Below are positions 55,478-59,677 of a stretch of 62,115 nt of DNA, piece by piece (position 1 is the stretch's first letter; each line of letters starts with the position of its first letter). This DNA comes from an uncultured Bacteroidia bacterium (GTDB lineage: Bacteria; Bacteroidota; Bacteroidia; JANWVE01), in NCBI GenBank assembly GCA_938028625.1, contig CALIZB010000035.1:1-62115 (forward strand), read 5' to 3'. The notes below the pieces were generated by a model that did no database searches, was not told the origin of the DNA, and saw nothing but the letters and a program-made list of their open reading frames with translations. A program made the position numbers and the translations under genes.

Positions 55478-57100
55478 ATGTTAAATAAAGTGATATATGT
55501 ATTTGGAATAACTTTTTTTACCCTTACTTGCTACTCTGCTTTTAAGTTTAGTTCAGTAAATGTAGGTGGTTCTGTTATGGACACTGGTAATAAAGTGTTT
55601 CAAGATAAAGTTTCTCATAAAAATCAAAAATTTACACCACTTAATATCCATGATATGATTGTAGTAGAACATGTTTCTGAATTATGCTCTCCTTATGACG
55701 ACTATGAAACTGCTTTCCGCGATGATAACTCTATTCTTTTTACTTCCACTCGCCCCGGCGGAGTAGGGGGTGAAGATATATGGTCCTCTAAAAAAGACCC
55801 AAGTACAGGCAAATGGAGTGAACCTAAAAATGTAACTATATTTAATACTAGAGAAAATGAAGGTAGCCCTTTTGTAACGGCTGACGGTAGTCGTGTGTAT
55901 TTAACCCGAGATGCAGGTAAAGACAGGATGTGTGATATTTTTGTAAGTGATATATCTGGTGGTAAACCTAGTAGTCCACGGTCTTTATCTGGTGGTGTAA
56001 ATTCTAATTCATGGGACGCGCATCCTTGCGTTTCGCCTGATGGTAGATATTTAGTATTCTCTTCACTTCGTAGTGGCGGATTCGGGCAACATGACATTTA
56101 TATTTGTGAAAAACAAGGAGATACATGGAGCACCCCGAAGAATATGGGAAGTACTATCAATACGGCTTTTTCAGAAATATCACCTTTCATAACGCAAGAC
56201 GGCAGTAGTTATGTACTTTATTTTACTTCTAACGGACAAAAAAGAGCAGACGCTTACGATATTTATCGTTCTTTCTTGATTGGTTCAGAATGGTCTACCC
56301 CCGAAAAACTGCAGTTCCCCGTTAATACAGAAGCTGATGAAAAATACTTTTGTATCACTCCAAGCGGTGAATATGGCTATTTTGCTTCTAACCGTAGAGG
56401 TATTACAGGTACAAAAGACAGTAAAGGCGCACATGATATTTACAGAGTAAAAATGAGTTATCTTAAAAAAGATAAAATGGTTAATGTTACAGGGCAAGTT
56501 TCTGACGCTACTTCCAATGCAGGTATCAATGCTAAAATCATCATTACTGATATTACCAAAAACGCTATTAACCAAACTATAACAGCAGACGCATCAGGGC
56601 GATTTAAATCTAATCTCCCCGTAGGACGCACTTATGTTATTCAGGTATCCAAAGATGGCTATATCTTTACCACAGATAACTTCACTATCCCTGATAACGC
56701 CAATGACTTTACAATACCCGCCTTTAAACTGACCAAAAAAGGCGTAGGTGCAAAAGGTACTCTCAAAAATATCGTATTCATGGACGCAAAGAGCAACCAA
56801 ATCAATGTAAAAGCCTCTCAGAAAGAATTAGAATTCCTCGTCAATCTTATGTTAGATAATCCTGACCTGAAAGTAAAAATTATAGGACATGTAGCCAACG
56901 ATATGTCCGCTGACTTAGCCAATAAACTTTCTTATGAACGCGCCGCAGCAGTGGTCAATTATCTTGTAAGAAACAACATAAATGTTTCCCGTTTGAAAGC
57001 AGAAGGAATGGGTTCTAAACAACCTATTGCAGATAACGGTACTCCCGAAGGCAGAAAAGCTAATCAACGCATTGAATTTGTGATTACGAGTGACGAATAA
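55478..57100 (+). CDS. OmpA-domain protein with PD40 propeller (PorE-like)
   Basis: A 540-residue envelope protein. Order: N-terminal signal, a WD40-like PD40 beta-propeller (about 70-330: NSILFTSTRPGGVGGEDIW, GRYLVFSSLRSGGFGQHDIY, YFASNRRG), a carboxypeptidase-regulatory-like domain (about 335-410: VNVTGQVSDATSNAGINAKI) and a C-terminal OmpA peptidoglycan-binding domain (about 425-540: PDLKVKIIGHVAND, LSYERAAAVVNYLV, GMGSKQPIADN). PorE, which anchors type IX secretion to peptidoglycan, has TPR, WD40, CRD and OmpA parts; this protein has all except the TPR. It is convergent with the SUMF1-like gene, six bases apart. Confidence 0.88.
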   Translation: MLNKVIYVFGITFFTLTCYSAFKFSSVNVGGSVMDTGNKVFQDKVSHKNQKFTPLNIHDMIVVEHVSELCSPYDDYETAFRDDNSILFTSTRPGGVGGEDIWSSKKDPSTGKWSEPKNVTIFNTRENEGSPFVTADGSRVYLTRDAGKDRMCDIFVSDISGGKPSSPRSLSGGVNSNSWDAHPCVSPDGRYLVFSSLRSGGFGQHDIYICEKQGDTWSTPKNMGSTINTAFSEISPFITQDGSSYVLYFTSNGQKRADAYDIYRSFLIGSEWSTPEKLQFPVNTEADEKYFCITPSGEYGYFASNRRGITGTKDSKGAHDIYRVKMSYLKKDKMVNVTGQVSDATSNAGINAKIIITDITKNAINQTITADASGRFKSNLPVGRTYVIQVSKDGYIFTTDNFTIPDNANDFTIPAFKLTKKGVGAKGTLKNIVFMDAKSNQINVKASQKELEFLVNLMLDNPDLKVKIIGHVANDMSADLANKLSYERAAAVVNYLVRNNINVSRLKAEGMGSKQPIADNGTPEGRKANQRIEFVITSDE

Positions 57101-57106
57101 CTGACA

Positions 57107-58669
57107 CTATTTTGGTTGCGGTACAAGTGTATTCCAGTCGGTAAAAATAAGCGCACCTGCATTTTTTTCAGGAAAATTGGGTTCAAAACGTACCCCAAGC
57201 ACATCTTTGTATAGGCGAGATAACGTGTACATCCATTCGTCAGCACGATAGCCCACATACCGCAAATGAAAAGCATCTAAATTGGTTTTAGCCGCGCGTA
57301 TGTATACAGGTCTGTGAATACCTTTGGCAAAATCCTCAAATCCACGTTGTAACGTTTTATATTTGATATTGATATTTTTATCGCCTGCGTACTGTGGAGG
57401 TCCTTTTTCCATGAGTACATTCTGCCAATGATAAGCCATAGGATTATTAAACCATCTCGGAAAGGAACAAGATGCAAAACCACTTTCTGACGCCATAATT
57501 CCCGTTAAAAACAACGGATGTACTTTGTATTTTTGGGTAACGTCTACAATCAGTTGTGCCATTTCTTTGGGTGTAATAATTTTTTGCCCATCAATAGCTT
57601 CATGAAAATACAAACAATTTGGATAAAAATCATGAATGTACAGTGCTAAACGCTCTATAAATGCCTGTGAATAACAGTCTAACGGAGTGGGATTTTCATA
57701 ATGAGAGGTTTCATACTTATAGAAATCATGTTGTACTTTTGGAATAAGCTGTACCTTGTTTTTATCCGCAGGGATATTTGCCTTGATAGGACGTACACAA
57801 CGAAAACCGATTTCATAATTGTAATTGCTTGGTGCATTATAGCTTCTGTAATGTACGGTTAAAAACTTAGGTGAAGGACTTCCCCATGAACCGCCACGCA
57901 TTACTTTGGTTCGTCCTGTTTTAGGTCCTTTGGGATTATATCTTGGGCTGTTTTTGTAATAATTTTCATCATACCAGTCATTGCACCACTGCCATACGTT
58001 GCCGCTCATATTGTATAATCCGTAGCCATTTTGTTTTTGTGATTTTACCGTTGCCAGACGCCACCAATTACCTATCTTGAAACCTCTTTCTGTATCATAA
58101 TTAGCATATTCATCTTTAAATTCATCTCCCCATGGATAGTTTTTTTGATGCAGTCCTCCTCTTGCGGCATACTCCCACTCCGCTTCTGTGGGCAAACGAT
58201 AACCATTTGCTGTGCTGTCCCATTCATATACAGGATAGCCCCATGCGTCTAATTTATCCGTTTTTTTGTAAGCAGGAGTTAAACCTTCTTTTTTACTCCG
58301 CCAATTACAAAAATCTGCCGCATGATACCAACTTACCCCACTTACAGGCTGTTCAGGCTGATGATACGTTTCATAATACCAATACTTAGCTACTGTTCCG
58401 CCTTCGTTCACATACTGTTCAAAATCAGAGTAAATGACAGGGCATTCGTCCATATAAAAAGCAGAAACAAAAACCGTATGCGTATCTTTTCCTGAACCCA
58501 TTACAAAACTGCCCGAAGGTATTTTTACCATCTTCTTTAAACCGTAATATTCGTTAGGTGCGGTATATTCTGTCAGTTTGTACATCTTGTTTTTATCTTG
58601 CTTTTTACCTTTACAAGAGATTAACAAAAGTGCAATCATCACAAACACAAATGAAAAAATCTGCTTCAT
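57107..58669 (-). CDS. SUMF1-like lipoprotein fused to a glucosaminidase-like domain
   Basis: A 520-residue lipoprotein (MKQIFSFVFVMIALLLISC, Cys19). The N-terminal half (about 50-305) is a formylglycine-enzyme-like domain: MVKIPSGSFVMGSG, FYMDECPVIYSDFEQYV, PVSGVSWYHAADFCNW, YRLPTEAEWEYAARGG, YPWG, GLYNMSGNVWQWCNDWY and IGFRCVRP. The catalytic cysteines of true FGE are missing, as in GldJ/GldK of type IX secretion. The C-terminal half (about 340-520) has FLTGIMASESGFASCSFPRWFNNP, with a possible catalytic Glu, and YKTLQRGFEDFAKGI, resembling glucosaminidase or lytic transglycosylase domains. The start is the ATG at 58669. Confidence 0.8.
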   Translation of the reverse strand: MKQIFSFVFVMIALLLISCKGKKQDKNKMYKLTEYTAPNEYYGLKKMVKIPSGSFVMGSGKDTHTVFVSAFYMDECPVIYSDFEQYVNEGGTVAKYWYYETYHQPEQPVSGVSWYHAADFCNWRSKKEGLTPAYKKTDKLDAWGYPVYEWDSTANGYRLPTEAEWEYAARGGLHQKNYPWGDEFKDEYANYDTERGFKIGNWWRLATVKSQKQNGYGLYNMSGNVWQWCNDWYDENYYKNSPRYNPKGPKTGRTKVMRGGSWGSPSPKFLTVHYRSYNAPSNYNYEIGFRCVRPIKANIPADKNKVQLIPKVQHDFYKYETSHYENPTPLDCYSQAFIERLALYIHDFYPNCLYFHEAIDGQKIITPKEMAQLIVDVTQKYKVHPLFLTGIMASESGFASCSFPRWFNNPMAYHWQNVLMEKGPPQYAGDKNINIKYKTLQRGFEDFAKGIHRPVYIRAAKTNLDAFHLRYVGYRADEWMYTLSRLYKDVLGVRFEPNFPEKNAGALIFTDWNTLVPQPK

Positions 58670-58723: not shown

Positions 58724-59677
58724 TTAACGCAAATAGTTACTAGTTTTTATTCTATGGTTTTTTATCTGTTGTACAGCCTGCAAACTGCGTGGCGTAGGGC
58801 GTACTAAAATATCTTCTTCTATACCAATAATCCGTGATGTGTCTTGTAAACAAGGTAAAACTTTCATTTCAGGATACAGGGAAAGTAAAGTTTCTTTTAT
58901 TTTGTTTTTTTGAGTTTTACTGACAATGATATACTCAGGGCGCTGAGCTAATACAAACTCACGTGTAAGTACAGGATAAGCTGTATTTGTAATACCGCTT
59001 GCAATATTCTCTCCCCCTGCTAATCGTATTACATCATTCATAAAACTGTTTTTGCCTGCTGTGTACAAAGGTTGCGTACCTATAACTAACCACATCTTTG
59101 GGCGTTTGAGAATACTTTCTTGACTGTATTTTTCAAGAATATTTTCTATACTGTCTGCGAGGAAATTTGCTTTCTTTTCTGTTTTCAAAAGTTTTCCCAA
59201 AAGTTGCATACTTCGGGGTATGTCTTTGAGAGTAGAGTAATTGATAAAAAATACAGGAATATTGTGTGGCTTGAACTGTTCTGTGATTTTTACACTCATT
59301 ACTTCGGTAGAGGTTAAAATAAGGTCAGGTTGTAAGGCTAATACCTGCTCTGTGCTTACATTGGGATATACCACTAATTTTTTAGGGTGTTTTTGTGCCG
59401 CTTCGGGATAATTACAGTGTTCTGTAACCGCTACTAATTTATCTTCCGCTCCAATAGTATAGAGGATTTCTGTAATACTGGGTACTAAACACACCACACG
59501 CTTTGGATTTTCCCTGAATACATGCGTTTGCTGTACATCATCAGTGAAAGATAAATCAGCATTTGGCTTTTTTGGGGTTGTACAGGCTGAATGAAAGGCA
59601 ATATATGCAAACAAAGATACTGTGAAAAGTATTTCTCTCCTGTTTCTCTGTACAAATTTTTTTTCTGTGATTTGCAT
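58724..59677 (-). CDS. BtuF/FepB-like helical-backbone metal receptor lipoprotein
   Basis: A 317-residue periplasmic binding protein for an ABC transporter of cobalamin or ferric siderophore. Lobes carry RVVCLVPSITEILYTIGAEDKLVAVTEHCNYP, LQPDLILTSTEVMS and the long backbone helix between about residues 170 and 190; WLVIGTQPLYTAGKNSFMNDVIRLAGGENI is family-typical. The N-terminus has AFHSAC with a lipidation Cys near residue 32. No permease or ATPase gene is beside it. Divergent from DUF1599. Confidence 0.88.
   Translation of the reverse strand: MQITEKKFVQRNRREILFTVSLFAYIAFHSACTTPKKPNADLSFTDDVQQTHVFRENPKRVVCLVPSITEILYTIGAEDKLVAVTEHCNYPEAAQKHPKKLVVYPNVSTEQVLALQPDLILTSTEVMSVKITEQFKPHNIPVFFINYSTLKDIPRSMQLLGKLLKTEKKANFLADSIENILEKYSQESILKRPKMWLVIGTQPLYTAGKNSFMNDVIRLAGGENIASGITNTAYPVLTREFVLAQRPEYIIVSKTQKNKIKETLLSLYPEMKVLPCLQDTSRIIGIEEDILVRPTPRSLQAVQQIKNHRIKTSNYLR

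Follow-up and report, generated by a model that had tools for sequence, protein, structure and literature searches.

A gene on the minus strand at 57107..58669 of the window (the whole 62,115-nucleotide stretch of DNA that was analysed, from an uncultured Bacteroidia bacterium) encodes a 520 aa protein in which a SUMF1/FGE-like domain is fused to a GH73-like domain. As judged from sequence comparison and a predicted structure, the protein is probably an N-acetylglucosaminidase tethered to a membrane in the periplasm, and its SUMF1 half would act as a non-catalytic docking or regulatory module. The SUMF1-GH73 fusion is a real, ancient and rare protein family. Both the GH73 and the SUMF1 kinds of protein are already known, and what is new here is the unusual module at the N-terminus of a wall hydrolase of GH73 type, a combination that is rare and conserved over two phyla. 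A search of the open literature, with subscription papers outside its scope, found no paper joining SUMF1/FGE with a glucosaminidase.

The gene has an ATG start, and its coordinates include the stop codon. The product begins with a signal peptide (58613..58669, minus strand) that carries a lipobox, LLISC (...LLLISC-19), recognised in the sequence. The cysteine is aligned in both genus orthologues; these come from two other species and are 81-82% identical to the window protein. Cys19 is predicted to be lipidated. No acidic run or surface-export motif is present in the sequence that follows it (KGKKQDKNK), and the protein would face the periplasm. Other carriers are anchored differently. Two proteins from the Leptospira class (L039 and L041) have a cysteine near the lipobox position, the lipobox being judged by eye, three proteins (L038, L048 and L049) have an apparent cleavable signal with no lipobox, and L050 has an apparent N-terminal membrane helix, so that export, rather than lipidation, is the common feature.

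The SUMF1/FGE-like domain covers aa 45-293 (57791..58537, minus strand) and was assigned by its match to PF03781 (E=2e-51), by alignment to FGE structures and by its clade in a phylogenetic tree (see below). The whole domain, about 250 aa, aligns with the formylglycine-generating enzyme of S. coelicolor (6muj, 1e-32). In the alignment to solved FGEs, RGGSYLC..SYC of the S. coelicolor enzyme is replaced by RGGSWGS..PSPK in the window protein, which differs from FGE in lacking both copper-binding catalytic cysteines and in being fused to a GH73 domain. Since both cysteines are absent, an FGE-kind enzymatic activity of this half is unlikely.

The C-terminal half is confirmed, by profile matches and a structural model, as a divergent GH73 glucosaminidase. 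The match of the window protein to PF01832 (Glucosaminidase), at aa 372-480 (57230..57556, minus strand), has E=0.0012 and 19.9 bits, below the curated cut-off of 30.2. The same profile is matched by seven of the seven fusion homologues tested (best 1.3e-6 in Pfam), so the weak match of the window protein is not due to chance, and two family members exceed the cut-off (L049, 32.1 bits; G296, 30.4 bits). These profile scores place the fusion family in GH73/PF01832, the window protein by itself being sub-threshold. An AlphaFold model of the C-terminal region (aa 311-520; 57110..57739, minus strand), built on six sequences, gave a pLDDT of 73.9 and a pTM of 0.76, the active-site loop (about aa 399-430) being modelled with low confidence; a full-length model with three close orthologues had a pLDDT of 33, was unusable and was discarded. 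The five best PDB matches found by Foldseek are all GH73-type wall hydrolases. The top match is the C. difficile Ecd09610 glucosaminidase (8yxk; probability 1.00, TM 0.61 by target length, with a modest E of 4.2e-3), and the other four are 3fi7 (Listeria Auto), 6fxp (S. aureus SagB), 3vwo (a peptidoglycan hydrolase of Sphingomonas sp. A1) and 7pj4 (pneumococcal LytB). The best viral structural match is a Bacillus phage glucosaminidase. A search of PDB sequences with the C-terminal alignment profile yielded nothing beyond weak noise, to glutamate dehydrogenase (E 0.03).

Glu395 (codon 57485..57487, minus strand), the glutamate of GIMASESGFAS, aligns with the invariant general-acid glutamate of GH73 enzymes (PMC4752226, PMC7170848), and is itself invariant in 10/10 members of the fusion family, across two phyla. 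In a profile alignment with 30 Bacteroidia GH73 domains it corresponds to the LESG glutamate, and an NN pair and the segment KYK.L..GF also align; this profile-profile alignment is colinear and weak (probability 22%, E 1e-3), and serves for residue correspondence only. The residues Y474-R-A-D477 (57239..57250, minus strand), placed by eye from the sequence and the family alignment, are the probable positional counterpart of YA(S/T)D, a GH73 substrate-binding motif (PMC7170848). Among the 10 members the tyrosine is kept in nine and the aspartate in seven, the motif being lost or changed in those from the Leptospira class.

An earlier note on this DNA, written from the sequence, had described a lipoprotein with a SUMF1 fold lacking the catalytic cysteine, joined to a domain resembling a muramidase or glucosaminidase. 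The first part is borne out by the PF03781 match, the replacement of both FGE cysteines and the lipobox at Cys19, and the fusion itself is found with the same domain order in every complete homologue. For the second half, the description as muramidase or glucosaminidase can be narrowed to GH73 glucosaminidase-like. The glycosidase fold that the note expected of the C-terminal region was recovered in the model, and the glutamate it pointed out proved to be present throughout the family.

Compared with GH73 glucosaminidases of the PF01832 family (FlgJ, Auto, SagB, AtlA, LytB and C. difficile Ecd09610), the fusion shares the predicted fold, the position of the general-acid glutamate, the NN motif and an exported location, and the window protein has a probable Tyr-x-x-Asp counterpart of YA(S/T)D. 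It differs in its low identity to the nearest solved structure (about 15%), in the absence of a second hairpin glutamate, in a family-specific block, SFPRW(F/Y)N(N/S)PMA(Y/F)HW, and in having SUMF1 as its partner domain instead of LysM, SH3 or flagellar domains. The block SFPRWFNNPMAYHW would serve to recognise further members of the family.

The second carboxylate of FlgJ-type enzymes is absent from the fusion protein, and no second carboxylate is conserved at this place in the family. Together with the degenerate YA(S/T)D counterpart of the Leptospira-class proteins, this means that part of the family could bind the wall and have no enzymatic activity. If this held for the family as a whole, the GH73 domain would be a non-catalytic, peptidoglycan-binding wall anchor that fixes the SUMF1 module and its ligand under the outer membrane, and the divergent sequence, with PF01832 scores below the cut-off in most members, would fit such a role. 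An anchor is nonetheless unlikely, given the invariance of Glu395 across two phyla and the fusion of a second wall-cutting domain in one member (G930, see below). Furthermore, the second carboxylate seems to be missing from the active GH73 enzymes AtlWM, AcmA and LytB as well, in which catalysis may be substrate-assisted (PMC4752226).

Homologues were sought by a scan of 84,980 genomes and by genome searches by lineage. The C-terminal domain occurs in 3/295 sampled genomes of the class, each from a different species within the genus of the window. For the phylum, it occurs in 1/395 sampled genomes, the window's own. It was also found in 4/399 genomes from the order of the Crocinitomicaceae MAG G296 (G296 itself, G800, G910 and G930), and in 3/48 genomes of the Leptospira class, all MAGs. 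The SUMF1 domain is N-terminal to the GH73-like domain in every complete gene, one gene (L040) being cut by a contig end. Identity between lineages is about equal for the two halves (e.g., 0.48/0.48 and 0.45/0.43), indicating that the fusion has apparently been kept as a unit for a long time. Its recurrence in a few genomes of Bacteroidota and the Leptospira class points to a real but rare family and not to a specialised type IX part. Faulty binning is not an obvious explanation for the spirochaete placement, since three separate MAGs carry the gene, in two of them on contigs 82 and 150 kb long, and a fliM-like gene lies nearby in L039. A phage origin was dropped, as no relatives were found in phage and viral collections. 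No plasmid record covers most of the query and, among the matches listed, the similarity is to the SUMF1 part.

The homologue in G930 (L050 382-2685, plus strand; 767 aa) has three domains, SUMF1, GH73-like and a C-terminal Amidase_2 (8.4e-24), and likely combines two wall-cutting activities in one protein, as read from its domain content. It resembles the bifunctional amidase-glucosaminidase autolysins (Atl type) in joining a GH73-like domain with Amidase_2, and differs from them in being Gram-negative, with SUMF1 at the N-terminus and the amidase at the C-terminus. The Amidase_2 family (N-acetylmuramoyl-L-alanine amidase) acts on the same polymer, so its presence points to peptidoglycan as the substrate.

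It is rather improbable that the SUMF1 half is a lectin-like or substrate-recognition domain of a protein that processes a GlcNAc polymer other than the wall, such as a glycoprotein or exopolysaccharide. In the Treponema variable protein, which is among the PDB matches, the FGE fold serves as a variable ligand-binding scaffold, and PF01832 is named for endo-glucosaminidase; both would suit a substrate of this kind. However, the GH73 enzymes that have been characterised cut peptidoglycan (PMC4752226, PMC7170848), the amidase of the G930 protein favours the same substrate, and the window protein has no surface-export motif behind its lipid cysteine. A PF01832 match over the cut-off is present in 95/119 sampled Bacteroidia. 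The genome of the window (G000, 99% complete) has no canonical GH73, the fusion being its sole PF01832-like gene, and no other GH73-like gene was found in the window's genus, so the fusion may be the only GH73-kind glucosaminidase of the lineage. Replacement of a canonical GH73 by the fusion was rejected as a general account, as it would explain the situation in G930 and in the genus of the window, but three other Bacteroidota carriers have both.

The earlier note had classed the protein with the type IX lipoproteins GldJ and GldK, a link that the analysis does not support. The likeness is real in that the fusion shares with GldK/PorK and GldJ the SUMF1/FGE fold lacking the catalytic cysteine, the lipoprotein nature and an RGGSW motif, and its best NCBIfam match is GldK (TIGR03525; 4.7e-40, 138 bits, cut-off 350). 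The window genome, however, encodes a separate canonical GldK, followed by GldL, on another contig, and a separate canonical GldJ beside a PorP-like gene; SprA is also encoded. When 43 SUMF1 domains, including nine fusions and with GldJ as a single row on a long branch, were placed in a maximum-likelihood tree, the nine fusion domains formed one clade (99/95), and a branch with 100/100 support set GldK/GldJ apart from the fusions, true FGEs and other SUMF1 proteins. After RGGSW the fusion has GS where the type IX proteins have KD; it also carries a wall-hydrolase domain and occurs in Leptospira-class genomes.

Two elements of GldK are also missing. The alignment has a gap in the fusion family at the place of the large GldK insertion; in PorK, the InsH insertion is the ring-forming (self-association) element (PMC12421860). 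The GldK cysteine loop, RN..GC.L.NFKP.RG, has its cysteine in 23/23 GldKs, and is a gap in the window protein and in FL050, FL038 and FL041. The GldK/PorK cysteine is reported to be completely invariant and needed for secretion, and in F. johnsoniae GldK it is Cys343, which links SprF/PorG (PMC12635249). The cysteine column of the 23 GldKs is taken here, from the alignment, as the counterpart of Cys343. Membership of GldK/GldJ was rejected because of the separate genes, the tree, the missing insertion and loop, the differing gene neighbours, and the Leptospira-class carriers that lack SprA.

Regarding those carriers, two of the three have no SprA match; in the third there is a distant SprA-like protein that scores below the cut-off, and nine other genomes of the class also have this protein but not the fusion. 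SprA is present in each of the six Bacteroidota carriers that were tested. A convergent gene next to the fusion (55478-57100, plus strand) encodes a protein with a PD40 beta-propeller, a carboxypeptidase-regulatory domain and OmpA, and has weak similarity to PorE (205 bits, cut-off 600) and CHU_0125 (198 bits, cut-off 620), being neither by score; the G930 homologue adjoins genes of PorP/SprF and PD40-OmpA type. These observations, with the GldK match, could be accommodated by a role in the type IX/gliding machine, in which a ring or track lipoprotein of the GldJ/GldK type uses its glucosaminidase half to open the wall or to grip it. Set against the tree, the missing GldK elements, the Leptospira-class carriers and the absence of the fusion from most sampled Bacteroidota, such a function is very improbable, and there is no positive evidence for functional contact of the fusion with the type IX machine in Bacteroidota.

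Gene neighbours differ among carriers, with no conserved neighbourhood, and no gld genes lie beside the fusion gene. A link between the fusion and the PD40-OmpA gene was not retained: the G930 counterpart is just 28% identical over part of its length, and none was seen in other neighbourhoods, two genus contigs having little sequence beyond the fusion on this side. Upstream of the fusion gene is a gene for a BtuF/TroA-like substrate-binding protein (58724-59677, minus strand). A homologue of it (64% identical) adjoins the fusion in G002 in divergent orientation, so the two genes do not form a conserved operon.

A tethered glucosaminidase could work as follows. After export, the fusion protein would be anchored through the lipid on Cys19 to an envelope membrane, probably at the periplasmic face of the outer membrane. 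The GH73 domain would cut the GlcNAc-MurNAc bond of peptidoglycan with Glu395 as the general acid and, as the second glutamate of FlgJ-type enzymes is missing, the N-acetyl group of the substrate itself may assist catalysis. The former substrate groove of the SUMF1 domain may bind a partner protein or glycan, thereby placing or controlling the hydrolase. By analogy, PorK offers a precedent for this role, as its FGE substrate groove has been converted to a protein-docking surface (PMC12421860). A more specific proposal, tentative and on balance doubtful, is that the family represents a second, independent repurposing of the FGE fold, in which docking of a partner would place or activate the wall-cutting enzyme that is part of the same chain, in an envelope process that is common to Bacteroidota and Leptospira-class bacteria and is other than type IX secretion. 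The SUMF1 fold is so far known as an enzyme or as a secretion-ring scaffold, and the fusions are a small, defined family for asking how it targets or restrains a cell-wall hydrolase. They also illustrate that, in a Bacteroidota genome, finding a SUMF1 lipoprotein with no FGE cysteines is not enough to assign it a GldK/GldJ role.

Two observations were made on SprA. In 10/48 Leptospira-class genomes (L094, L095, L096 and L097; G328, G299, G333 and others) a protein roughly 2000 aa long is encoded that is similar to part of SprA (best 103 bits, cut-off 200), and this may be a distantly related form of the type IX translocon in bacteria other than Bacteroidota. The window genome, which has a full-length SprA on contig C5, carries a second, short SprA match (G000:C101:6728-7237, minus strand; profile 2149-2318, 154 bits) in a 172-aa open frame, perhaps a contig-edge fragment or a partial duplicate.
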